Positions 1-13,938 of a stretch of DNA of 64,000 nt are shown one piece after another. This DNA is from Cystobacter fuscus. Its GTDB lineage: Bacteria > Myxococcota > Myxococcia > Myxococcales > Myxococcaceae. A model generated the notes under the pieces. It made no database searches. It saw only the letters and a list, made by a program, of their open reading frames with translations, and had not been told where the DNA came from. The DNA lies in the NCBI RefSeq assembly GCF_002305875.1, contig NZ_CP022098.1:11160001-11224000 (forward strand), written 5' to 3'. How positions within the stretch are numbered: position 1 is the stretch's first letter; each line of letters starts with the position of its first letter. The position numbers and the translations under genes were made by a program.

Positions 1-223
1 CTCCATTCACCCGAGGAGATGGCACGGTGGCTGGGGACTCTCACCGCCATGATGAACAACAGGCGGTGACGGCTCCCCGGCGGACTTCTTCGAAACTCGT
101 GCGCTCGTGTCGATTAAGCGGCGCTCCACCGGAGAGTGTCGGTTGTTCCCGACTTCCCGCAATGGCACATCATCGGGGTCTCCAACGAAGCGGCCGGGGC
201 CGGGGTCGCGGGGAAGGGATCCG

Positions 224-1681
224 ATGAAGAGTGACGGGACAGCTTTTCCAATCAAAAATATTCAACGACTCGTTCTAGGAGTCGCCGTGTTCCTGTCGGG
301 TGTGGCATTGGCCAAACCTCCCGCGGGAGGTGTGTTCTGCTCCACCTATCCCACGGCGCCCGCGTGCACCGGACAGCAACCATCTTGCAATTATTGTCAC
401 ATCGCACCACCGCAGCGAAATGTCTTCGGCGCTGGACTGGAGCCCCACCTGGCTCCCGGCGCGGCGCGCCCGTTGTCCGACACGGACTTCGCCTACGCGC
501 TCCCCACGGCGCTCAAGGCCGTCGAGACGGAGGACGCCGACAGTGACGGCGTGCCCAACCTCGTGGAGCTCCAACGCGGCACCTTCCCGGGCGATCCCAA
601 CAGCGTGCCCGTGGACACCGGCCGTTGCCAGGAGGGTGACAGCAATCCCCAGTACGACGTGTGCCGTCATGACGCGCGCTTCGCGTACAAGCGGCTCCTG
701 CTCGACTTCTGCGGCGTGCCGCCCACCTACACGCAGTTCGAGGAGTTCAGCGCACTGAGCGCCGACGCGCAGCGCGCCCGGATGGATGCCGAGCTGGACC
801 GCTGCACCCAGAGCGAGTTCTGGCGTGGCAAGAACGGGCAGTTGTGGAAGCTGGCGCACCCGAAGATCCGCCCGGTGGGCTCGCTCAAGGCGGGTGAGGA
901 GGACCCCGGTGTCATCGCCCTCGCCGACTACTACGACGACTACGCGCTCTACGCCTACGCGCAGATCGACGACCACGACGCGCGCGAGGTGATCACGGCG
1001 AAGTACTACGTGCGCCGGGAGACCCACCCCACCCGCTATACGGTGGTGCCGACGCTGCCGACACAAACCATGGATGAGCTGCACCGCGCGGGCAACATCA
1101 CCTCCCGGTGGAGCCTCCTCTATTTCGTGATGTTCAGCGCGCTGCCGCGCAACGCCGCGTCGCAAGCCTACCGGGCGTACCTGGGCCTCGACATCGCCAA
1201 ACAGGAGGGCCTCTTCAGCATCCCCGGCGAGCCCCGTGACTATGACCACGCGGGCGTGACCTCGCCTGGCTGCGCGGCCTGCCACGCGACGTTGGATCCG
1301 CTCAGCTACCCCTTCCGCAACTACGAGGGCCTGTCCTTCCCCATCAACCCCGATGCGCCCTGGGCGACCTACGTGCCCGACCGCATCGAGAAGCGCTTCG
1401 CCAACGTCACCCCGATCATCACCCAGATGCCGGAGACCGGGTACCTCTTCGGCCAGAAGGTGAACAACCTCGTGGAGTGGGCGGAGCTCGGTGCCAACAG
1501 CGATGCCTTCGCCATCGCCGCCGTCACCGACTACTGGAAGCTGCTCGTAGGCCATCCCCCCACCCCCGAGGAGAACGCTGAGTTCGTCTCCACCTGGAAG
1601 CGCTTCAAGGGCACGCACCAGTACCGCGTGCAGCGCATGCTTCATGACCTGATCCGCACGGAGTCCTACGGTGCGCCCTGA
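224..1681 (+). CDS. Secreted DUF1588-like protein with two CxxCH haem motifs
   Basis: A secreted protein of 485 residues. The start at 224 follows a GGGAAGGGA ribosome-binding site, and a signal peptide ends near the ALA-K junction at residues 28-31. Two c-type haem motifs are visible, CNYCH at residues 55-59 and CAACH at about 350-354. The second lies in a GCAACHATLDPLSYPF context resembling the DUF1588 family of large cytochrome-like proteins. Between them is an Asp-rich, calcium-binding-like stretch (DADSDGVPNLVEL). The stop overlaps the GTG start of the next gene, so the two are translationally coupled. A decayed DUF1501-like gene follows. Such genes often travel together in myxobacteria and planctomycetes, but the substrate is unknown. 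A periplasmic redox or structural role is inferred. Confidence 0.7.
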   Translation: MKSDGTAFPIKNIQRLVLGVAVFLSGVALAKPPAGGVFCSTYPTAPACTGQQPSCNYCHIAPPQRNVFGAGLEPHLAPGAARPLSDTDFAYALPTALKAVETEDADSDGVPNLVELQRGTFPGDPNSVPVDTGRCQEGDSNPQYDVCRHDARFAYKRLLLDFCGVPPTYTQFEEFSALSADAQRARMDAELDRCTQSEFWRGKNGQLWKLAHPKIRPVGSLKAGEEDPGVIALADYYDDYALYAYAQIDDHDAREVITAKYYVRRETHPTRYTVVPTLPTQTMDELHRAGNITSRWSLLYFVMFSALPRNAASQAYRAYLGLDIAKQEGLFSIPGEPRDYDHAGVTSPGCAACHATLDPLSYPFRNYEGLSFPINPDAPWATYVPDRIEKRFANVTPIITQMPETGYLFGQKVNNLVEWAELGANSDAFAIAAVTDYWKLLVGHPPTPEENAEFVSTWKRFKGTHQYRVQRMLHDLIRTESYGAP

Positions 1682-2345
1682 TTTCCTTCGCGTGTTGCTG
1701 TTGTCCTCCGCTTGTGTCCTCTCCGCGTGCCCGTCCCCCTCGCCCTCGGGGCCGGATGCCGGCACGCCGCCGCCCGCCGATGCCGGCACGGGTTCCTCCG
1801 GTGACGTGGCCCCCTCCTCGCGCAACAACCTGCGCATCATGAATCCGGAGCAGCTCACGGCCCACTTCGCCTCGGCGCTGTCCCTGCCGCCGGAGCAGGT
1901 ATGCAACGAGTTGGGCCAGTATTCCTGCGCGAGTCATGCGCACACCGTGGCCCTGGGCGGTGTCGAGCCCTTCGGCGTCGGTCTCTACGAGCCCCTGAAG
2001 ACCACGGGCGCGACGACGCCCAACGTCATCGACCGCATGGCCCTGGCGGCCTGCGCCCGGCGCGTCTCACTCGAACTCACGACCCCTGGGGAGGCACTCC
2101 TCTTCAAGGGCATCGAACTCGACGCGCGGGGGCGTCTGACCCACCGGGAAGGCGCGCCGGTCCGCGACGCCATCGCCTCGCTCTACCAGCGCGCCCTGTT
2201 GCGAAAACCCACGCGAACCGAGGTGGATACGTTGTCGCAACTGGCCACCCGGGTTGAGTCCATGGGCAGTCAGACACCGGGCCGCGACTGGATGACCCTG
2301 GCCTGCTTCACCGTCCTCTCCTCCGCCGAATCCGTCTTCTTCTAA
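1671..2345 (+). CDS. Putative lipoprotein of unknown function
   Basis: 224 residues, starting at a GTG that overlaps the end of the upstream haem protein by 11 bases. The N-terminus is a lipoprotein signal with the box VLSAC (Cys20), followed by a Pro/Ser/Ala linker, so the mature protein is probably anchored in a membrane. The body (roughly residues 45-224) contains LYQRALLRKPTRTEVD, which resembles the helical part of DUF1588/DUF1592-type proteins. I do not recognise a catalytic motif. The tight coupling to the haem protein suggests a shared complex or pathway. The next gene, 9 bases downstream, is a pseudogene, so the system may no longer be complete. Confidence 0.6.
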   Translation: MRPDFLRVLLLSSACVLSACPSPSPSGPDAGTPPPADAGTGSSGDVAPSSRNNLRIMNPEQLTAHFASALSLPPEQVCNELGQYSCASHAHTVALGGVEPFGVGLYEPLKTTGATTPNVIDRMALAACARRVSLELTTPGEALLFKGIELDARGRLTHREGAPVRDAIASLYQRALLRKPTRTEVDTLSQLATRVESMGSQTPGRDWMTLACFTVLSSAESVFF

Positions 2346-2354
2346 GGAAACGTC

Positions 2355-3167
2355 ATGTCACTGCGTAACAATGGACGGCTCTCGCGCCGGGAAGTCCTGA
2401 AGGCGTTGTCGATGTGCGCGGCGGGCTCCACGATGGGGCCCCTGTTGACGGGCTGCCGCGACGCGCTCACCACCCCGGCGGCACTCGAACCTTCGATGAC
2501 GCGGCGGCGCTCCGGCTCTGGAACGAGCAGCGCACCTCGGGGCAGGCCACGCTGGAGGTGCAGGACCTCATCAGCCGCCTCAACGTGATGCCCGACCAGC
2601 CGCCGAAGACGCCGCTCTCCGAGTACGGCCTGTCGAGTTCCCCGATGCGGAGCGACTGCGCGCGGTCTTCCCCCATTACATGTCGGATCCGGTGCAGGGG
2701 CAGGCGGCGCTGGCATTCCTGCTGCTCAAGCACCGGGTGTCGGTGTCGGTGACCCTGGGCCCATCGTTCAACATGGTGGTGACTCCCTCGTATGAGGTCA
2801 CCAATCCGCCGCTGGCCTACGACTTCAGCCACAATGATCACCGCTCCATCCAGGCCTTCATGTGGTCGCGCCTGATGGACACGATCGACAAGCTCATCGA
2901 GCTGCTCAAGTCGGAGCCCTTCGACTCGAGTGGTGAGAGCCTGTGGGATCGCTCGTTGATCTACATGGCGACCGAGTTCGGGCGCACGCGCTCGCGGCCG
3001 GAGGGTGCCACGGAGATGTTCGGCACGGGGCATGACCTCAACAACGGGTTCATGATCCTGTCACCGGGGGTCCGGGGCAACACGGTGCTGGGCGGCGTGG
3101 AGCCGAAGACCACGCCCGCGAAGGTGTCAAACGACTCGTGGGGCGGGACTTCGTGGTGCGCGAGTAG
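2355..3167 (+). pseudogene. Decayed DUF1501-like secreted protein (frameshifts and deletions)
   Basis: Remains of a secreted DUF1501/sulfatase-like protein. The beginning (2355 to about 2505) encodes SRREVLKAL and a lipobox-like LLTGC in one frame. About 2500-2640 continues in a second frame (LRLWNEQRTSGQATLEVQD). From about 2640 a third frame carries VFPHYMSDPVQGQAAL, YDFSHNDHRS and ATEFGRTRS, the last being the family's typical C-terminal motif. The ending RDFVVRE-stop at 3167 needs one further frame change. All three forward frames are used in order and the total (about 270 codons) is well below the usual 400-500. This is a pseudogene with several indels rather than a sequencing slip. It sits directly after two co-oriented secreted genes that would normally be its partners. 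Confidence 0.75.
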
Positions 3168-5139: not shown

Positions 5140-6741
5140 TCACGCCGCCGCCTTCAGCCCGTGCCGCACGGAGCCCGCGGACACGAGGTCGCGGGGACGA
5201 GCACCGCCGCGCTCGGAGTCATCCCCCACGCGGAAGAAGGACACCAGCCGCTGCAGCGCCTCCGCCTGCGCCGACAGCTCCTCCGCCGTGGACGCCAGTT
5301 CCTCGGAGGCCGACGCATTGCGCTGCATCACCTGGTCCACGAGCCCCATCGCCTTGTTGAGTTGCATCACCCCGTCGGCTTGCTCCACCGACGCCGCCAC
5401 CACCTCCTGCACCAGGTCCGCCGTCTTGCGGATGGAGGGCACCAGCTCATCCAGCAACCGCCCCGAGCGTGTCGCCACCTTCACGCTGCCCGAGGCCAGC
5501 CCCGAGACCTCCCGCGCCGCCGTCTGGCTGCGCTCGGCCAGCCTACGCACCTCCGTGGCCACCACCGCGAAGCCCTTGCCATGCACGCCCCCCCTCGCCG
5601 CTTCGATGGCCGCGTTGAGCGCCAGCAGGTTCGTCTGGTAGGCGATCTCCTCGATGATGGAGATCTTCTCCGCGATGGAGCCCATGGCCTCCACCGTCTC
5701 CTTCACCGCCTCGCCGCCCTCCCGCGCGTCCCGGGCGCCCTGCACGGCCATCCGCTCCATCTGCCGGCCGTGGTCGCGGTTCTGGGTGATGCTGGCCGTC
5801 ATCTGCTCCAGGCTGGAGGTGGCCTGCGCCACGCTGCTGGCCTGCTCGCTGGTGCCCTGCGACAGGCTCTGCGAGGAAAGCGACACCTGTGCCGATACCG
5901 AAGCCAATGAGTTGGCCCCCTCGCGCACCTCGCCGATGACCTGGGCCAGCTTGCGCACCATGCGCTCCAAGGCCACCAACAGCCGGCCCGTCTCGTCCCG
6001 CGCGTCCGAGGAGATGCGCACGGAGAAGTCCCCCTCGGCGAGACGATCAGCCACCGCCACCGCCTGTGCCAGTGGCTTGGAGATCGCCCGGGCGACGAAG
6101 AAGCAGAACAGCAGGCACACGGCGAGGCTGCCCCCCAGGACCCCGAGGATCCACCTGCGTGCCTCCTCGTGGGTGGCGTTCGAGTTCCCCACCGCCTTCT
6201 GGCTGGCCTTGTAGTTGATGTCCCTCAGCGCCCGCAGCTGGGTGTTCGCGGCGAAGAAGCTGTGGTGCGCTCGACCGGAGATGAGCTCCAGCGCCTCGGC
6301 GGACCGATTCGTGCTCGTGAGTCCGATGACCTCGTCGTGATCGACCACGTAGTTCTTCCAGAGGCTCTTGAACTCCTCGAGCGCGCGACGCTCCTCCTCG
6401 GAGGAGAGGTGTGACTCGAACCGCGAGAGGCCCTGCTCGAACTTCTCGAGGTCGCCACGCATCCGCTGCTCGTAATGGCGTTTGAGCTCTTCATCCCTCG
6501 CAAGGGCATGCAACAGCTCGACACGGCGGAAGCTCGACGCGCGATCGCTCGCGTCGGCGAGATAGATGATGCCCGGCAGCCGTTCCAAGGACACCTCATC
6601 GGATGCATCGCGCATGTCATCCATCCGCGCGATGGCGAAGAGGCCCTGGAAGGTGGAAAACCCCAGCAAGACGAGGAAGGCCACAAGGAGCTTCGAGGAG
6701 ATACTCAGATCACGGAACCAGCGCATGGGGGCATGCTCCAT
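5140..6741 (-). CDS. Methyl-accepting chemotaxis protein
   Basis: 533 residues with the classic receptor layout. A first membrane helix (about 15-33) is followed by a helical-bundle sensor region (about 35-190). A second membrane helix (about 193-215) leads to a HAMP domain and a long coiled-coil signalling domain. The signalling hairpin that contacts CheA/CheW is visible as [20 protein letters not shown]. The start may be Met1 (6741) or Met6 (6726). No other chemotaxis gene lies nearby, so this is an orphan receptor feeding one of the organism's chemosensory arrays. The ligand is unknown. Confidence 0.93.
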
Positions 6742-6825
6742 TATTCCAGACTGGGCGAGGACGAGCCCGGGGAGGAGTTCGAACCAACGCCTGCCCAGCC
6801 GGCGGGTTGGACCCTGTTCGAGCCC

Positions 6826-7485
6826 CTATGCCTTCACCAGCAGCCGAATCCCATACACCACCAGCACCAGCGCGAGCACCCGGCGGATGAGCGGCTCGCG
6901 CCGGGAGTAGGCCCGCCGGACGTGCCCGGTGGACAGGCCCCAGGCCAGCGTCCCGTACCACGCCATGCCGATCGTCACGACGCCCGCACCCGCCGCCACG
7001 CGCACCCAGGAGGGAATGCCCACCGCCACTGTGGGAGCGAGGAGGCTCAGGTAGAACGGCAGGGTGTTCGGATTGGACAGACTGGAGAACAGCCCGCTGC
7101 GAAAGGGCCGGGCCTCCTCCCCCGCCAGCGCCCGCTCCACCAGCGCCTTCTCCGGAGTCACGGCCGACTCCGCCGCGGAAGCGCGTGAGGCCGCCCGCGC
7201 GGCGAGCCATCCCCTCACGCCCATGTAGAGCAGGTACAGCCCACCCACGTAGCGCACGGCGCGCATCCCTCCCGGCAACCGCTGCAGGAGCACGGCGACG
7301 CCGCCCAGGGTGACGCACAGCCACGCCGCATTGCCCAGGGCAATCCCCAGCACGGCCTGGACCGCGTGCCGGCGCGAGGCGGACAGCGCCAGGCGCGTGA
7401 CGATGAACGTGTTCGGCCCGGGCGTGATGACCGCGAGCAGGTACAGGCCATAGATGGAAGCGAGCAGGGGGCCGGGAGGAGGCAT
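6826..7485 (-). CDS. LysE/RhtB-family amino-acid exporter
   Basis: 219 residues, polytopic with about six membrane helices. The N-terminal helix contains the family hallmark AVITPGPNTFIV, and GIALGNAAWL follows in the second or third helix. Family members export amino acids or small metabolites using the proton gradient. The specificity cannot be read from sequence. I take the ATG at 7485, preceded by GAGGTGGGGG; a GTG five codons upstream (7500) is the alternative. The gene is divergent from the large spermidine-synthase-like gene, leaving about 275 bases for both promoters. Confidence 0.87.
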   Translation of the reverse strand: MPPPGPLLASIYGLYLLAVITPGPNTFIVTRLALSASRRHAVQAVLGIALGNAAWLCVTLGGVAVLLQRLPGGMRAVRYVGGLYLLYMGVRGWLAARAASRASAAESAVTPEKALVERALAGEEARPFRSGLFSSLSNPNTLPFYLSLLAPTVAVGIPSWVRVAAGAGVVTIGMAWYGTLAWGLSTGHVRRAYSRREPLIRRVLALVLVVYGIRLLVKA

Positions 7486-7761
7486 GACGAGGACCCCCAC
7501 CTCATCACTCTTCCCGGGGAGGTGTCAGCCCCCCACCGCTCCAGCAACGCCTCGAAATGAGTTCGCCGTGTGGTCAACCCCGCGGGCAGAGCGGGGGAGC
7601 GAGCCCCGAACGAGGCGCTCGCCCGGCACCCGGTTCAGCGACTCCGAGGGCAAGGCGGCGACCACCCGCTCTGGCTCGTGACGAAGTCCTTTGTCAGGAC
7701 GCAACCCGGCTGATTCAATCGGACACGTCCGGGCCCACCCCGCCCCCTGAATCAGGATCCG

Positions 7762-10700
7762 ATGAACGCACGTGTCTGGAAGATTGCTCCCCTGCTGTTT
7801 GGCTCGGGATTTTGTGCCCTCGTGTACCAGACGGCATGGCAGCGGGAGTTGCGCCTCATCTTCGGAGCTTCCACGGCGGCGTCCGCCGCGGTGCTGGCCA
7901 TCTTCATGGGTGGCCTGGGCCTGGGAGGCGCCCTGCTCGGGGCGCGCGTGGACCGGCACAAGCGGCCACTGGCCTTCTACGCCGACCTGGAGCTGCTCAT
8001 CTCCCTGAGCGCGGCGGTGACGCCGTTGCTCGTGTGGCTGGCACGCACCCTCTACGTGGCCCTGGGCGGTACGGTGTCACTGGGCCTGGGCGTGGGCTCC
8101 GTGGTCCGGCTGCTGCTCTCGACGCTGGTGCTCGCGGTGCCCACGCTGCTCATGGGCGGCACCCTGCCCGCGGCCGCGCGCGCCGCGGAGACACCCGAGG
8201 ACGTGCGGCGCCGGGCACTCGCGGTGCTCTACGGCCTCAACACCCTGGGCGCCGTGGCGGGCGCCACCGCGTCCACCTTCCTGCTCTTCGAGGTGTTCGG
8301 CACCCGCACGACGCTGTGGCTGGCCACGCTGGTCAACGTGCTGGTCGCGCTCGTGGCGCGCTCGGTGGCGCGGAGTCTGCCCGAGTCCGAGCCGGACCAG
8401 GCGCGGGCCGCCCCCACCCCCGAGGACGCCAAGACACTCCCCCTGCCCCCGCGCGCCTTCGTCCTCACGGCGGCGGCCCTGGTGGGCTTCGCCTTCTTCC
8501 TCATGGAGATGGTGTGGTACCGGATGACGAGCCCCCTGCTGGGAGGCTCCACCTTCACCTTCGGCCTCATCCTGATGGTGGCGCTGGCGGGCATTGGCCT
8601 GGGAGGCGCGGCGTACGCGGCCTGGGGACAGACGCGTCCGGCCACCCTGCGAGGCTTCGCCCTGACGTGCATCCTGGAGGCACTGCTGCTCGCCGTGCCG
8701 CTGGCCCTGGGAGACAAGGTGGCGGTGCTCGCGACGCTGACGCGGCCCCTGTCCGTCTTCGGCTTCAGCGGCCTGGTGTTGAGCTGGACCCTGCTCGCCG
8801 CGCTGGTGGTGTTTCCCGCCGCCTTCGTCTCGGGCGTGCAGTTCCCCTTGTTGCTGGCGCTGCTGGGGCGGGGCGGCGAGCAGGTGGGCCGGCAGGTGGG
8901 CCTGGCCTACGCGTGGAACACCGTGGGCTCCATCGTGGGCTCGCTGGCCGGCGGCTTCGGTCTGCTGCCCCTGCTGACGGCCCCGGGCGTGTGGCGGACG
9001 GTGGGCGGGGTGCTGGTGGTGCTCGGCCTGGTGGCGGCGGGAATGTCCCTGCGCTGGGAGCAGGCGCCGCCCTCGCGGCTGCTCCCCTCGTTGTTCGCGG
9101 CCGCGCTCACCGTCGTCCTGCTCACGGCCGAGGGGCCCACCGCCGTCTGGCGGCACAGCGGCATCGGCGCCGGACGCAGTCGAGTGGAGACGGGCTCCAC
9201 CCAGGAGTTGCACGATTCCTCATCGCGGCTGCGCGGCTCCTTGCTGTGGGAAGCGGATGGCGTGGAGAGCAGCGTGGGCATCCTCGGCACGGACGGCCTG
9301 TCCTTCCACGTCAATGGCAAGTCGGATGGCAACAGCGTGGGCGATGCGAGCACCCAGGTGATGGGTGGACTCATCGGGGCCCTCGCCCATCCGAATCCAC
9401 GCCACGCCCTCGTCATCGGACTGGGCACCGGCAGCACCTCGGGCTGGCTGGGCTCGGTGCCGGGGATGGAGCGCGTGGACACGGTGGAGATCGAACCGGC
9501 CATCCTGGAGATGGCGCGCCAGTGCGCGGACGTCAACGAGCGCGTGCTGGACAACCCCAAGGTGAACATCATCTTCGACGATGCGCGCGAGGTGCTGCTC
9601 GCCTCCCACGAGTCCTACGACATCATCTTCTCCGAGCCCTCCAACCCCTACCGGGCCGGCATCGCCAGTCTCTTCTCCCGCGAGTTCTACCAGGCGGTGC
9701 GGCGGCGGCTGGCGCCCGGAGGCATCTTCCTGCAGTGGGTGCAGGCCTACGAGGTGGACGCACGCACGGTGCGCAGCATCTACGCCACCCTCACCTCCGA
9801 GTTCGGCGCCGTGGAGTCCTGGCAGACGCAGACCGGCGACCTCATCTTGATGGCCACCGCGGAGCCGTGGCGCCATGACCTGGAGCGCATGCGGGCCCGG
9901 GTGGCCCAGGAGCCCTACCGCCGGGCCCTGGCCACGACGTGGGAGACCACGGAGCTGGAGGGCGTCTTGTCCCACTTCATCGCGGGCCCGGCACTGGCCC
10001 TGCGCCTGTCCCAGGGACAGGAGGCGTTGATCAACACGGATGATCTGTCCTACGTGGAGTTCGCCTTCGCCCGCGGCGTGGGCCGCACGCACACGGGCTT
10101 CTCACCAGCGCTGTTGCGCCAGCTCGGCATCGACCTGGGCGCGGACCGGATGGAGGTGGAGCGAGGGACGGTGGACTGGCAGCGTGTGGAGGAGCTCCGG
10201 CTGCTCACCACGCAGTGGGACCCACCACGTCGGCCCGACCTGAACGCCAGCAAGCTCCAGGCCTACCGCGCCGTGTATGACGCCTATAACCGCCAGCAAC
10301 TGCCCGGGGCGTTGAAGCTGTGGCAGCAGACGCAGGCGCAGCCCCGGGACATCATGGAGTTGCGGCTGGTGGGCGAGCTCCTGGTCCAGCGAGGCGATGA
10401 AGCCGCCCTGCCCCTCCTGGAGCAGCTGGAAGTCTCGCTTCCCTTCGATGCCAGGTCCCTGCGCGCCCAGTGGTTGGTGGGCAAGGACCGCCATGCCGAG
10501 GCCACGCAGTCACTCGAGAGCGCCTTCGCCGTGCTTCACCAGGTGCCCTGGGGCAGCAACAACCTGCTCGAACGGGCCATGGCCCTGAGCGAGAGCATCG
10601 CCCGGAAGGACGCCGCCCTGGGAGAGCGGTTGTGGAACGCGCTGGCCCGGCCCTTCTCCAACCACCGGGGGGAGAGCAGCCGCAAGCAGACGCGCCTGGT

Positions 10701-10920
10701 CCTGGCCACGAGCCTGGGATTTTCCCAACGGTGCGCCGAGGCCTTCGCGCCCTACGAGCCCCACGTCCCCTGGAACAAGTCCTTCCTGGAGAAGCGCGCG
10801 AGCTGCTACGTGGAAACCCACCACGCCCTGGAGGACGAGGCACTCGCGGACATCGCACGCTTCATCTCCACGGAGCCCCCCCCCCTGCTGGAGGATGGCG
10901 CGAACGCCCCACCCCCTTGA
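7762..10920 (+). CDS. Fused polytopic membrane / spermidine-synthase-like protein
   Basis: 1052 residues. The first ~440 residues form many membrane helices with repeated short loops (GLGLGGALLGARVDR). Around 545-720 is a spermidine-synthase-type Rossmann methyltransferase fold. The SAM-binding loop VIGLGTGSTSG, the acidic VDTVEIEPAIL and SEPSNPYRAGIASLF are visible. In true spermidine synthases the last motif carries the catalytic Asp; here it reads SEPSNPY, as in other membrane-fused relatives. Residues 750-1052 are helical and TPR-like. Proteins of this architecture are common in myxobacteria, are often annotated as spermidine synthase, and have unproven substrates. I doubt cytosolic spermidine is the product. 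Confidence 0.75.
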   Translation: MNARVWKIAPLLFGSGFCALVYQTAWQRELRLIFGASTAASAAVLAIFMGGLGLGGALLGARVDRHKRPLAFYADLELLISLSAAVTPLLVWLARTLYVALGGTVSLGLGVGSVVRLLLSTLVLAVPTLLMGGTLPAAARAAETPEDVRRRALAVLYGLNTLGAVAGATASTFLLFEVFGTRTTLWLATLVNVLVALVARSVARSLPESEPDQARAAPTPEDAKTLPLPPRAFVLTAAALVGFAFFLMEMVWYRMTSPLLGGSTFTFGLILMVALAGIGLGGAAYAAWGQTRPATLRGFALTCILEALLLAVPLALGDKVAVLATLTRPLSVFGFSGLVLSWTLLAALVVFPAAFVSGVQFPLLLALLGRGGEQVGRQVGLAYAWNTVGSIVGSLAGGFGLLPLLTAPGVWRTVGGVLVVLGLVAAGMSLRWEQAPPSRLLPSLFAAALTVVLLTAEGPTAVWRHSGIGAGRSRVETGSTQELHDSSSRLRGSLLWEADGVESSVGILGTDGLSFHVNGKSDGNSVGDASTQVMGGLIGALAHPNPRHALVIGLGTGSTSGWLGSVPGMERVDTVEIEPAILEMARQCADVNERVLDNPKVNIIFDDAREVLLASHESYDIIFSEPSNPYRAGIASLFSREFYQAVRRRLAPGGIFLQWVQAYEVDARTVRSIYATLTSEFGAVESWQTQTGDLILMATAEPWRHDLERMRARVAQEPYRRALATTWETTELEGVLSHFIAGPALALRLSQGQEALINTDDLSYVEFAFARGVGRTHTGFSPALLRQLGIDLGADRMEVERGTVDWQRVEELRLLTTQWDPPRRPDLNASKLQAYRAVYDAYNRQQLPGALKLWQQTQAQPRDIMELRLVGELLVQRGDEAALPLLEQLEVSLPFDARSLRAQWLVGKDRHAEATQSLESAFAVLHQVPWGSNNLLERAMALSESIARKDAALGERLWNALARPFSNHRGESSRKQTRLVLATSLGFSQRCAEAFAPYEPHVPWNKSFLEKRASCYVETHHALEDEALADIARFISTEPPPLLEDGANAPPP

Positions 10921-11042
10921 GGAGGGCGCTGCTTGGATTTATTCAAGCAAATCAAAACAACCGAGACATCTGTGATTGCACGGTGATTCATGCCAGAGTG
11001 GCTTCTTCCTCGTCGTCTCGGTTCATGGAGGAGAAGTCACCC

Positions 11043-12227
11043 ATGGCGTTGAGCGAGAGCCTCCGGAGTCAGGGACAGCAGGAGGCGTCCCTGCTGGATG
11101 CGATTCGAACCGCCGACCGGGAGCTGACGCGTCACCCGGTGTTTGGCGACTCCAAGCGGATTCACGCGCTGGTGCTGGAGCGCTACAAGTTCGGTCTGGA
11201 GTTGTTCGCCGAGCGGCTGCCGGCGGTCGCCGCGCTGCTGCCCCCCCTCACGGAGGGAGGCGATGCACGAGCCCGGCGGCTGTACCGGGATCCGCTCGTG
11301 CGCAAGGTGATGGAGGCGGCCTTCAAGAAGCTCGAGCAGGGCGCGCTGGTGGCGCCCCAGGCGGAGCTGGAAGACATCCTCTCGCTGGCGGCCGAGGCCC
11401 TGAAGCGCACGGACATCGACGGGCCCTGCGAGGCGCGGATGAGCCGGCGCTTCCGGGTCGGACCGCGCCAGGACACCTGGGTGTGGAGCTTCGACCACGC
11501 CGAGGACCCCGTCCTGCGCGAGCTTCGAGAGGGATTCGACCGGGCCTTCTCCAGCCGGGGAAGCCGCCCCGGGCGCATCATCCAGCCGGAGCCGGAGCAG
11601 GTGGCGCGGCTCGATCGCGCCTGTGCCCTGCTGGCTCGGGTGCTGCCCGAGGTCGGTGCGAGCGTGCTCGGACACATCAGCTCCATCTGCCTCCTGGAGG
11701 TGGAGGTCGAGGGCGGGAAGATGATGTCCGCCTCGGGAGGAGACGGCATTCCCTCGACCGTCTTCATGTCGCCGGAGCAGTTGCGCAACCCCTGGGACGC
11801 CGCCGGACACCTCCTGCATGAGGGACTGCACCTCAAGCTCTTCGACGTCGTCCGCGCCCACACGCTCGTGGATCCCCACAGCGACCCGTTGGAGATTCCC
11901 TGGCGCGACATTCCCTGGCCAATGGTTCGCGCCATCTTCGCGTTCCACGTCTACGCGCACATCGAGCTGTACCGGGCCGCGGTCGACCAGGCGGACGCCG
12001 GGTTGCTCCGGGAGTTCGGCGAGCCGGGCAGCTACACGGACAACCGCCATGCCATGTCGGTGTCGCGCAACAACGAGAGCGTGCCGTATGGGCTCTCGGT
12101 GGATCGCACGCGCTTCCTCGGAAAGCACCTGCGCACCACCTGGGCCTCGCGGCTCACGCCCGAGGGTCTCCAGCTGACGCGCTGGCTGCAACAGTGCCTG
12201 GCTCCTTTCGTCGACTGGGACGCTTGA
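11043..12227 (+). CDS. HExxH-type (2-oxoglutarate) peptide beta-hydroxylase-like protein
   Basis: 394 residues. I choose the ATG at 11043 because GGAGGAGAA lies just upstream; an in-frame ATG at 11025 sits inside that region. The key motif is HEGLH at residues 259-263 in GHLLHEGLHLKLFDV, followed by a region with FHVYAHIELYR. This pattern matches the family now called aKG-HExxH-type peptide beta-hydroxylases, where HExxH binds iron rather than zinc and side chains of RiPP precursors are hydroxylated. Nine bases downstream is a PqqD-like protein, then a 46-residue peptide. This is the layout expected for maturase, leader recognition and substrate. A metalloprotease role cannot be excluded from the motif alone. 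Confidence 0.75.
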   Translation: MALSESLRSQGQQEASLLDAIRTADRELTRHPVFGDSKRIHALVLERYKFGLELFAERLPAVAALLPPLTEGGDARARRLYRDPLVRKVMEAAFKKLEQGALVAPQAELEDILSLAAEALKRTDIDGPCEARMSRRFRVGPRQDTWVWSFDHAEDPVLRELREGFDRAFSSRGSRPGRIIQPEPEQVARLDRACALLARVLPEVGASVLGHISSICLLEVEVEGGKMMSASGGDGIPSTVFMSPEQLRNPWDAAGHLLHEGLHLKLFDVVRAHTLVDPHSDPLEIPWRDIPWPMVRAIFAFHVYAHIELYRAAVDQADAGLLREFGEPGSYTDNRHAMSVSRNNESVPYGLSVDRTRFLGKHLRTTWASRLTPEGLQLTRWLQQCLAPFVDWDA

Positions 12228-12235
12228 GGTGACAC

Positions 12236-12538
12236 ATGTCCTCGCAATGGCGCTACACGAAGACGCCGGACCTCAGGCTCCGCCCGCTGAAGGAGCATGG
12301 CTATCTGCTGGTGTTCACGCCCTCGCGCCCCCGGCTGCACTGGCTCAACTTGAATGCGTGGCTCATCTTCGAGCTCTGTGACGGCAAGACCGAGGAGCAG
12401 CTCCGTCAGGCCTACGTGGCCGCCGTCTCGCGCAAGCTCTCTCCCGAGGAGGCCTGGAGCCAACTCCAGGCCGGACTCGCCCAGTTGGAGAGGATCGATG
12501 TCGTAAGGAAGTCCGAAGCCAAGGAGGTGTACATATGA
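12236..12538 (+). CDS. PqqD-like RiPP recognition element protein
   Basis: 100 residues, matching the size and look of PqqD-family leader-binding domains. Features are a beta-rich start (DLRLRPLKEHGYLLVF), then LHWLNLNAWLIFELCDGKTEEQL, typical of the winged-helix fold. PqqD-like proteins bind the leader of a ribosomal peptide and present it to the modifying enzyme. The gene begins 9 bases after the HExxH protein, and its TGA overlaps the ATG of the small peptide gene (ATGA at 12535-12538), so all three are probably made together. No radical SAM gene is adjacent, which supports the HExxH enzyme as its partner. Confidence 0.85.
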   Translation: MSSQWRYTKTPDLRLRPLKEHGYLLVFTPSRPRLHWLNLNAWLIFELCDGKTEEQLRQAYVAAVSRKLSPEEAWSQLQAGLAQLERIDVVRKSEAKEVYI

Positions 12539-12675
12539 ACGCCGAGAACCAGATCCAGACGCTCGAGTTCCTCCAGAAGCTGATGGAGCAGACCGAGATG
12601 CTCGAGGCCCCCGTCGTCACCCAGGGCTCCGCCCAGGAGCGCGACTGGCTGCCTCCTCACGCGCAGTTCGAGTAG
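12535..12675 (+). CDS. Candidate RiPP precursor peptide (46 residues)
   Basis: A very short gene whose ATG overlaps the stop of the PqqD-like gene. An AAGGAGGTG site lies 7 bases before the start, among the best in the window. The peptide has an amphipathic leader-like first half (IQTLEFLQKLMEQTEMLEA) and a second half rich in Gln, Asp, His, Pro and aromatic residues, ending RDWLPPHAQFE. There are no Cys residues, so lanthionine or sactionine chemistry is unlikely. Asp37, His42 and the Gln residues are plausible hydroxylation sites for the HExxH enzyme. The split between leader and core is my inference; no GG cleavage site is visible. It is followed by a strong hairpin. Confidence 0.75.
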   Translation: MNAENQIQTLEFLQKLMEQTEMLEAPVVTQGSAQERDWLPPHAQFE

Positions 12676-12684
12676 CTCACCGGA

Positions 12685-12716
12685 CGCCGCGGCCTTGAAG
12701 CTTCAGGGCCGCGGCG
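12685..12716 (+). terminator. Strong hairpin after the RiPP operon
   Basis: A perfect 10-bp inverted repeat (CGCCGCGGCC ... GGCCGCGGCG) surrounds a shorter TGAAGCTTCA palindrome, starting 10 bases after the precursor stop. It lacks a downstream T-run, which is common for hairpins in very high-GC genomes. It most likely ends the three-gene transcript or protects its 3' end. Confidence 0.6.
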
Positions 12717-12801
12717 ATGCCTGGGTGAGCGGAAGCTCCAGGGTGGATACGGCGCCCTTGCCCGGTCCCTCGCTCTCGAGGGTCAAGCGACCATCCAGGA
12801 G
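12703..12801 (-). pseudogene. Remnant of a histidine kinase C-terminus
   Basis: About 32 codons on the minus strand read DGRLTLESEGPGKGAVSTLELPL before a stop at 12703. This matches the last strand and G2-box region of HATPase domains (typically GRIxxxSEGxGKGATFxxxLPL). No upstream kinase frame remains intact in the following 300 bases, so this is a fossil. It overlaps the hairpin behind the RiPP operon. The rest of the gap up to 13107 shows no supportable gene. Confidence 0.45.
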
Positions 12802-13107
12802 CAGTGCCGCCAACGCAGAGGAGGGAGCGGCAGTGCACCTCCTCCAGGGTCGAGGCCAGGGAGAGCGCTGCACGATGCATTCCACACGCAAACGCCGGGG
12901 GTGACCTCAGCAGCTCCGACATCCAGCTCTGGCCCACCGTCTTCGGCCAGCAGGCCGCGGAAGCGCTCAGGCCAGGCGGCGGCACGCCCCGCGCCCAACC
13001 GGTGAAGGAATAGCCCCATGCGAAAGGCTTTAGGAGCGTGTACGGGCGGCTGCATCTGCCCCTGAGCCGCGTCCTCCAATAAGCTCGCCGCTCCGGAGGA
13101 ACACACC

Positions 13108-13938
13108 ATGGAACGAACGAACAAGAACGGGCCATCCCAGCGTGGCACCGTGACGCTGCCCGATGGACGTGCACTGGCCTGGTCCCAGCATGGCACCGGT
13201 GCGCCGACCCTCCTCCTCATCCATGGCTGGTGCTGTGACCAGCGGTTCTGGGATGCGCAGCTCGAGTCCCTGTCCCGCGACTTCACCGTCGTGACGGTGG
13301 ACCTGGCCGGCCACGGCCTGTCGAGCCGCCTCCCCGCGGGCTCCGCCCATCCCATCGACGCGATGGCTCGGGACGTCGTCACCGCCATCGAGCAGTTGGA
13401 GCTGCGCGAGCTCATCCTCGTCGGCCATTCGCTTGGTGGGCCGGTCGCGCTCGAGATAGCGCTCGCCAGACCGGACAGGTGCCGGAAGGTGATTGGCGTC
13501 GATACCTTCACCGATGCCGCCATGTACCGGCGCAGGCCACCCGCGGAGATCGCGGAGCGCTGCAACGCCTTCCGGGCGGACTTTCCGAAAGCGATGACGG
13601 CGCTCGTCCGCATGATCACGCTGCACGATGCGCTCGGTTACGGCGTGGCCGACTGGATCGCCGCCACCATGAGCGCACAAGAACCCGAGACCGCGGTGGC
13701 CGTGCTGGACGCGCTGCTGCGATGGGACATCGATGCGCGCTGGCCACTCCTCACCCGCCCCGTCGCGACGATCAACTCCGCGCCCCTCGTCCCGCTCATC
13801 CAGCCCATCGAAGGACTGGCGGGCCTGGAACTCGAGATGATGGAGCGCGTGGGCCACTTCCCGATGATGGAGGATCCTCGCGGCTTCGAGACCCGGCTGC
13901 GCCGGCTCATCGGCCGGGACTCCGCCGGGCCCACCTGA
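13108..13938 (+). CDS. Alpha/beta-hydrolase
   Basis: 276 residues. The alpha/beta-hydrolase fold is evident from LLLIHGWCCDQRFW (oxyanion-hole region, about residues 32-45), the nucleophile elbow GHSLGG at about 110-115, and a late His in ERVGHFPMME that would complete the triad. A CCGGAGGAA site precedes the ATG. Family members cleave esters, haloalkanes, epoxides or acyl groups, and the sequence does not indicate which. It stands alone: the next gene is convergent. Confidence 0.88.
   Translation: MERTNKNGPSQRGTVTLPDGRALAWSQHGTGAPTLLLIHGWCCDQRFWDAQLESLSRDFTVVTVDLAGHGLSSRLPAGSAHPIDAMARDVVTAIEQLELRELILVGHSLGGPVALEIALARPDRCRKVIGVDTFTDAAMYRRRPPAEIAERCNAFRADFPKAMTALVRMITLHDALGYGVADWIAATMSAQEPETAVAVLDALLRWDIDARWPLLTRPVATINSAPLVPLIQPIEGLAGLELEMMERVGHFPMMEDPRGFETRLRRLIGRDSAGPT

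Follow-up and report, generated by a model that had tools for sequence, protein, structure and literature searches.

Cystobacter fuscus, whose relatives are myxobacteria, has a 12.35-Mb genome assembled as a single contig that carries a compact operon at positions 11043–12716 of the stretch analysed here (NZ_CP022098.1, positions 11,160,001 to 11,224,000 of the forward strand; henceforth the window, 64,000 nucleotides in length). Three genes, all on the plus strand, are followed by a hairpin. The first (11043–12227) encodes a protein of 394 amino acids (aa) with the motif HEGLH at residues 259–263; the NCBIfam model TIGR04267, its predicted fold and its homologues mark it as the probable modifying enzyme, a peptide oxygenase of the alpha-ketoglutarate (aKG)-HExxH type. 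The second (12236–12538) encodes a stand-alone PqqD-like protein of 100 aa, assigned as a recognition element (RRE) of ribosomally synthesised and post-translationally modified peptides (RiPPs) from its predicted fold, a sub-threshold Pfam match and its homologues. The third (12535–12675) encodes a precursor peptide of 46 aa with a predicted leader of about residues 1–27 and a conserved segment at residues 28–41; it occurs in 25 genomes and was compared in 16 forms. Modifying machinery and precursor together amount to three genes in about 1.7 kb. We regard it as highly probable that they constitute a real, pared-down RiPP operon in which a precursor presented by an RRE is oxidised by an aKG-HExxH enzyme.

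Several features recognised in the original prediction are present in the sequence as described, namely the three linked genes, the HEGLH motif, the overlap of the PqqD-like and peptide genes as ATGA, and the ribosome-binding site AAGGAGGTG (12521–12529, plus strand), which lies inside the end of the PqqD-like gene ahead of the ATG at 12535 and is identical in both congeners. The closing hairpin (12685–12716, plus strand) had been described as a perfect 10-bp stem; the ten G-C pairs are there, and four further pairs, one of them G-U, extend the stem to 14 bp around a 4-base loop (folding energy −30.5 kcal/mol, z −5.2). It recurs in both congeners, genomes G003 and G001, each of which shares with the window one long blastn match running from 7540 or 7627 to 12716–12717. 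Because this match stops there, the hairpin coincides with the end of the conserved unit. A classical terminator was ruled out, as the T-run is missing and a terminator scan did not list the hairpin.

The HExxH enzyme

The first protein scores 72.7 bits against TIGR04267, the NCBIfam model for aKG-HExxH peptide beta-hydroxylases (cut-off 40), and the enzymes of three relatives score 63.4, 69.7 and 83.9 bits. Pfam returned no match at E values up to 1, no peptidase family in Pfam or NCBIfam matched, and no radical SAM family was detected in the window enzyme or in the three relatives' enzymes scanned. An AlphaFold2 model built from 20 family sequences reached a mean predicted local distance difference test score (pLDDT) of 87.6 and a predicted template modelling score of 0.89. 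With this model, Foldseek gave five matches at E ≤ 0.001, four chains of ChlH (8s5f, E 6e-8) and SjiH (22ob), a protein on which our literature search found nothing. Alignment with VIA-align yielded Z 23.7 for ChlH (305 residues, root-mean-square deviation 3.5) and Z 23.5 for SjiH, whereas the best zincin peptidase reached Z 5.3, a weak match still compatible with distant kinship; hits below Z 6, including LTA4 hydrolase and other zincins, were not taken as kinship. Both the family score and the fold therefore speak for the predicted aKG-HExxH enzyme, and the identity as a zinc peptidase, with which the enzyme might have grouped, is judged very improbable on the same two grounds. By analogy with its family, the protein is probably an aKG-HExxH oxygenase that uses Fe(II), O2 and aKG.

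Sequence comparison places the enzyme in a coherent group. A search of the PDB returned only a marginal match to ChlH, in whose alignment the HExxH motif, K265, R271, P286-W287 and H306 agree. The HExxH motif, K265, D268, W287, H302 and Y304 are identical across 25 family rows and two distant outgroup rows. The window enzyme is 89–97% identical to those of the two congeners and shares 44–48% identity with the HExxH enzymes closest to the precursor in Myxococcus, Corallococcus, Archangium and Lysobacter; viral contigs contained no relative.

The PqqD-like partner

The model of the PqqD-like protein (pLDDT 89.3) consists of four strands, three helices and a last strand. Its top Foldseek match is PqqD (5sxy, E 1.5e-3), with none under 0.001, and VIA-align gave Z 11.0 for the lasso-peptide RRE TbiB1 (87 residues) and Z 7.7 for PqqD 5sxy. 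This RRE-like fold bears out the proposed partner despite a Pfam PqqD score below threshold. Outside its own genus, the protein has 35–43% identity with Lysobacter PqqD proteins and with the PqqD domains found in HExxH-PqqD fusions; of the fused relatives, one passes the Pfam model at 27.5 bits and another fails at 20.3. The two functions are joined in one polypeptide in relatives and encoded by separate genes in the window and for the proximal enzyme of Lysobacter. Since natural fusions exist, the split proteins may be expected to act together. Judged by what is known of its family, the PqqD-like protein probably binds the precursor.

A conserved precursor peptide in two phyla

A peptide profile search recovered the precursor in 18 of 145 genomes of the order, the same 18 in 195 genomes of the phylum, and 7 of 395 genomes sampled from the larger group of Lysobacteraceae. 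These searches scored part of the first-look candidates, which makes absences weak and all counts lower bounds. The resulting 25 precursor loci (18 from the order, 7 from Lysobacteraceae) span two phyla, and in all 25 a coding sequence for HExxH and PqqD lies just upstream of the peptide, as would be expected if the small gene is a RiPP precursor; a chance open reading frame is ruled out by its presence in 25 genomes. Conversely, an enzyme profile at E ≤ 1e-10 found 20 of the 145 genomes of the order, comprising all 18 with the peptide plus G117 and G097, which carry distant tandem enzymes and different peptides. A scan of the genomes of 84,980 species with two strict patterns, whose counts are again lower bounds, gave 11 loci, in Myxococcus, Corallococcus, Archangium, a Myxococcaceae metagenome-assembled genome, Lysobacter and one record labelled Comamonas. 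The peptide is present at all 11, which were located by the enzyme alone; the small gene is thus conserved next to homologous enzyme genes, contrary to the outcome that would have spoken against its role. As far as searched, the family appears confined to myxobacteria and Lysobacter. The peptide coordinates in the Comamonas sp. KCTC 72670 record (locus L026, BNCN01000001.1) are those of G124, from genus g23 of the order, and the label looks wrong.

The window precursor, MNAENQIQTLEFLQKLMEQTEMLEAPVVTQGSAQERDWLPPHAQFE, has 46 residues and no Cys, and related precursors have 46–51 residues. For comparison we used 16 distinct forms, 13 from 16 of the 25 loci and three carried by the other nine. 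Thirteen columns are invariant in all 16 (M1, N5, L10, L16, V28, T29, G31, S32, E35, R36, W38, P40 and P41), and nine of these fall within positions 28–41, as V-T-x-G-S-x-x-E-R-x-W-x-P-P. This pattern suggests that chemistry or recognition takes place on residues 28–41. Lack of Cys, noted for the window peptide, does not extend to the family: only five of the 16 forms are Cys-free (three from the window's genus, two from Lysobacter), and the precursors of Myxococcus, Corallococcus and Archangium have TCGS in place of the window's TQGS. The N-terminal part is helix-like and ends in L23-x-x-P26, in agreement with the W/Y/LxxP/L/I recognition sequences given for RRE groups including PqqD (PMC12710340).

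Asp, His or Gln in the C-terminal tail had been put forward as sites of beta-hydroxylation. As family-wide targets they are ruled out by variability across the 16 precursors: position 37 (Asp in the window) is Gln, Lys or Arg in relatives, position 42 (His in the window) is usually Tyr, and Gln44 belongs to a variable tail, although their modification within the window's genus alone would still be compatible with these data. Tails beyond P41 differ in length and sequence (HAQFE, YIVNDTSKKED, YNVSPAPPSN, HVVETKNEKKKK). The pairing whose conservation the original prediction proposed to check is kept in 25 of 25 loci, and the tail is conserved as far as W-x-P-P, with variable residues past P41. 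Pro has been reported as a target of aKG-HExxH enzymes, with His, Asp, Phe and Gln listed as earlier ones (PMC13060819). Among these residue types only Pro40 and Pro41 are invariant here, which makes one or the other our leading guess for the modified residue. Position 39 is Leu in the three peptides of the window's genus and Trp in the other 13 forms.

Fuller clusters in relatives

The operon had been proposed as a self-contained minimal pathway. This description may fit the one-enzyme form of the window's genus and does not extend to four other genera, which add a second HExxH-PqqD fusion and a flavin adenine dinucleotide (FAD) oxidoreductase. Myxococcus, Corallococcus and Archangium have a tandem pair of HExxH-PqqD fusions ahead of the peptide and the FAD gene after it (Pfam DAO 134 bits; NCBIfam ThiO 108.6 bits, below the cut-off of 250.8). 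Lysobacter encodes the proximal enzyme and PqqD as separate genes, as in the window, with a methyltransferase and the FAD gene downstream; a methyltransferase near the peptide is found only at the seven Lysobacteraceae loci. FAD-gene sequence lies within about 1.5 kb of the peptide at 22 of the 25 loci, and the three without it are those of the window's genus. Among 21 loci viewed more widely, a set that includes repeats (L020 and L087 are from the same genome, and L026 equals G124), 18 have two HExxH genes and the FAD gene, and three, the window and its congeners, have one HExxH gene and no FAD gene.

Genome-wide searches gave the same division. Two full-length enzyme matches occur in all 15 other peptide-bearing genomes of the order. 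None of the three genomes from the window's genus has them; there, the match listed second comes from the stand-alone PqqD gene. Among the seven Lysobacteraceae genomes, six showed the distal enzyme, and the seventh (G505) was covered with 1.5-kb flanks only. A search with the Myxococcus FAD protein found no match in genomes G000, G001 and G003, with the window's whole genome covered; G002, from which the operon is absent, has weak matches only (27–37% identity). When about 6 kb on each side of the Myxococcus or Archangium loci was compared with Lysobacter, the genes in common were the two enzymes, PqqD, the peptide and the FAD protein, all other rows being shadow frames of these. Identity across this distance is 66–72% for the FAD protein, 60–66% for the proximal enzyme and 46–49% for the distal enzyme.

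In a tree of 27 HExxH domains, the window, precursor-proximal and distal clades meet in a fork that is not resolved, with long branches flagged, so that loss of a second enzyme fits as well as an older one-enzyme state. The absence of W39 coincides with that of the distal enzyme and the FAD gene, but the comparison amounts to one evolutionary contrast and proves no connection.

Proposed pathway and alternatives

These observations are consistent with the following route. The 46-residue peptide would be translated from its overlapping start, and the PqqD-like protein would bind its helix-like N-terminal part, up to L23-x-x-P26. In the bound state it would offer V28-T-x-G-S-x-x-E-R-x-W-x-P-P41 to the aKG-HExxH enzyme, which, with Fe(II), O2 and aKG, may oxidise this segment, most likely by beta-hydroxylation and with Pro40 or Pro41 as the favoured site. 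Leader and tail would be removed to give the product. In relatives, the second aKG-HExxH-PqqD fusion and the ThiO/DAO-like flavoprotein, both missing from the window's genus, may add further steps.

Several points weigh against this proposal. The PqqD-like protein scores 17.9 bits against Pfam PqqD (PF05402), under the cut-off of 23.4, and a third HExxH-PqqD fusion and one Lysobacter PqqD-like protein have no match to this model at E 0.1. Its winged-helix fold is not specific to RREs, and methyltransferase domains align to the model at Z 8.4–9.0, above PqqD itself (7.7). Candidates for the third metal ligand of the enzyme are uneven, with H302 not conserved in ChlH and H306 absent from one distant homologue. 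In the precursor, the LxxP element is not kept in Lysobacter (LEES) and reads MQTP in Archangium, and RRE recognition might lie with the invariant W38-x-x-P41 itself, in which case the modified part would be elsewhere. The peptide genes of the three congeners differ by 0–1 synonymous and 1–2 amino-acid changes, too few to show selection. Finally, nothing clearly recognisable as a protease or exporter gene adjoins the window operon, as the original prediction had also remarked, and no protease, exporter or immunity gene was recognised among the genes common to related loci.

The lack of a protease gene among the common genes is equally a point for a different main reaction, in which the enzyme cleaves the backbone oxidatively, instead of or in addition to hydroxylating it, and thereby frees the conserved segment from the tail without a peptidase. 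PosC and PflC offer a precedent, with Gln hydroxylation and backbone cleavage at an ARMD sequence (PMC12636437), and the variable residues past P41 would suit such a role. A conserved ARMD-like cleavage motif was not found past the conserved segment, however, and other aKG-HExxH enzymes, ChlB and PesO, are reported as hydroxylases (PMC12636437, PMC13060819). On balance we consider cleavage as the main reaction unlikely, though an alternative to be taken seriously.

The invariance of W38-x-P-P41 permits another arrangement, with this sequence serving as a follower recognised by the PqqD domain and the chemistry falling on the T-x-G-S-x-x-E-R part. By far most known RiPPs have their RRE site on the N-terminal side of the core, and W39 is absent along with the second enzyme and the oxidase, a hint of chemistry close to that residue; both make a follower site improbable in our view. 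What keeps it under consideration is that all 16 distinct precursors keep W38-x-x-P41 while L23-x-x-P26 varies, that WxxP is the recognition sequence of the RRE StsC, and that RREs are described as binding leader or follower regions (PMC12710340).

We give very little credence to the idea that the window operon is a decaying remnant which, having lost the second enzyme, the oxidase and W39, no longer makes the product of the family. It would account for the single enzyme and the lack of an FAD oxidoreductase match in all three operon-bearing genomes of the genus. Yet the three reading frames are intact in three species, with peptides 98% identical and congener enzymes 89–97% identical to that of the window, T-x-G-S-x-x-E-R-x-W-x-P-P is wholly kept, and the tree does not divide loss from an older one-enzyme state. 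Least credible of all is a zinc metallopeptidase with the small gene as its inhibitor or pro-peptide: HExxH is the textbook signature of zincins, and PflC acts as a protease in the absence of a leader peptide (PMC12636437), but the aKG-HExxH model is passed with no Pfam or NCBIfam peptidase match, the fold aligns with ChlH at Z 23.7 while no zincin exceeds 5.3, and the enzymes of relatives are fused to a PqqD-like domain.

If the three genes are a RiPP operon, as we favour, its product need not be a secreted antibiotic peptide. The family might instead use a ribosomal peptide to make a small molecule or cofactor for internal use, like pyrroloquinoline quinone or mycofactocin, a speculative notion to which we assign only a small chance. 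It is suggested because the segment is nearly unchanged between Myxococcota and Lysobacter with the peptide ends variable on both sides, because no exporter or immunity gene was recognised among the common genes, and because the oxidase (66–72% identical between phyla) is better kept than either HExxH enzyme. Two aKG-HExxH-RRE enzymes would oxidise E-R-x-W-W-P-P of a throw-away precursor, the ThiO-like flavoprotein would oxidise a freed amine, and the methyltransferase of Lysobacter would cap the product; the window's genus, with one enzyme, would follow a simpler version.

Neighbouring genes and further loci

Upstream of the operon lies an intergenic stretch of 122 bp (10921–11042, plus strand) with an AT-rich part at about 10935–10985, a possible promoter region. 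A scan of 10850–12800 for the sigma-70 consensus gave zero matches, and no known structured RNA was found in 10800–13200 at gathering scores. The next gene upstream (7762–10920, same strand, 1052 aa, 122 bp away) encodes a fused MFS/spermidine-synthase-like protein (130 bits, cut-off 40); it lies within the block shared with congeners and has no counterpart in the operon neighbourhoods compared from other genera. Downstream, 13108–13938 encodes an alpha/beta-hydrolase-like protein outside the shared block, for which all 25 families shown are below cut-off, including a proline-iminopeptidase-type match of 27.7 bits against a cut-off of 167.65. The region just past the hairpin (12717–13070) is a patchwork in which 12720–12897 and short pieces up to 13067 match the congeners about 1–8 kb further downstream, which suggests insertions, deletions or rearrangement. 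The operon also has a short second DNA match in its own genome (76%, query 296–357, E 1.2e-4).

Cluster flanks are alike across the Lysobacter loci compared. In L022 and L023 (about 1–3000 and 11200–13000), genes for small proteins that look like the ribosomal proteins S6, S18 and L9 lie on one side of the cluster and a gene that looks like alanine racemase on the other.

The two genomes with distant enzymes present peptides of another kind. At L085 (G117:C3:807000-821000), two tandem distant aKG-HExxH-like genes (5602–8871, minus strand) have as neighbours small genes whose products combine a GG-type leader with repeated CGSTY cores (TCGSTYISCGSTYTAPEQP), as well as a gene of 739 aa that by eye resembles an ATP-binding cassette (ABC) transporter. 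This is apparently another myxobacterial aKG-HExxH peptide system, with the TCGS tetrapeptide in common with Myxococcus precursors. L086 (G097:C473:3000-12058) encodes at 6060–6215 a 51-aa peptide whose leader ends in VVGG and is followed by IGKGCETCYSSYTPDAQVD, near a 746-aa gene that by eye resembles an ABC transporter and near distant HExxH matches.

Relation to known systems and significance

Each component has known counterparts. PqqD and the lasso-peptide RREs (TbiB1, a lasso B1 protein) share the fold of the PqqD-like protein at 13–23% identity; their partners are a radical SAM enzyme or a leader peptidase, unlike the aKG-HExxH enzyme here. ChlB/ChlH, a radical SAM-aKG-HExxH fusion from Chlorogloeopsis (8s5f), resembles the window enzyme in fold and in acting on a RiPP precursor, but identity is only 16%, and the window enzyme has no radical SAM match and relatives fused to PqqD. 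Relative to ThiO-type FAD amine oxidases, the extra gene of the relatives is DAO/ThiO-like, yet it falls under the ThiO cut-off and sits beside a precursor peptide.

PflC and PosC, from the pfl and pos clusters of Pseudomonas, are likewise aKG-HExxH enzymes of RiPP clusters for which no nearby protease gene was found (PMC12636437). The pfl cluster differs in its MNIO-nitroreductase, acetyltransferase, transporters, nitrile-hydratase-type leader and C-terminal ARMD (PMC12636437); the precursors of the window family lack ARMD, and no MNIO was present among the proteins scanned, the genes common to the loci being all otherwise assigned and the flanking genes scanned in part. PesO, of the nitrilobacillin cluster of Peribacillus simplex, hydroxylates Pro, as we guess here, in the company of an MNIO, an asparagine-synthetase-like nitrile synthetase, M16 peptidases and a transporter (PMC13060819). 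As far as these sources describe them, aKG-HExxH RiPP systems combine the enzyme with either a radical SAM domain or an MNIO (PMC12636437, PMC13060819), the latter in pathways of the Pfl, Pes and Bpm type. Our literature search turned up no account of an aKG-HExxH enzyme combined with a PqqD domain and none of these precursors; the parts are of known kinds, and the peptide family is apparently undescribed.

The value of the finding lies mostly in a very small test system and an unexplored peptide family. One aKG-HExxH enzyme and its recognition partner appear to be the whole modifying machinery in the window's genus, which would make this a very small system for studying residue choice. The family also offers a natural experiment, since some precursors have W39 and others lack it, and clusters likewise occur both with a second enzyme and FAD oxidase and without them. 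Myxobacteria and Lysobacter are predators of other microbes, and the distribution of the family in such organisms raises the question of what role its product may play there.

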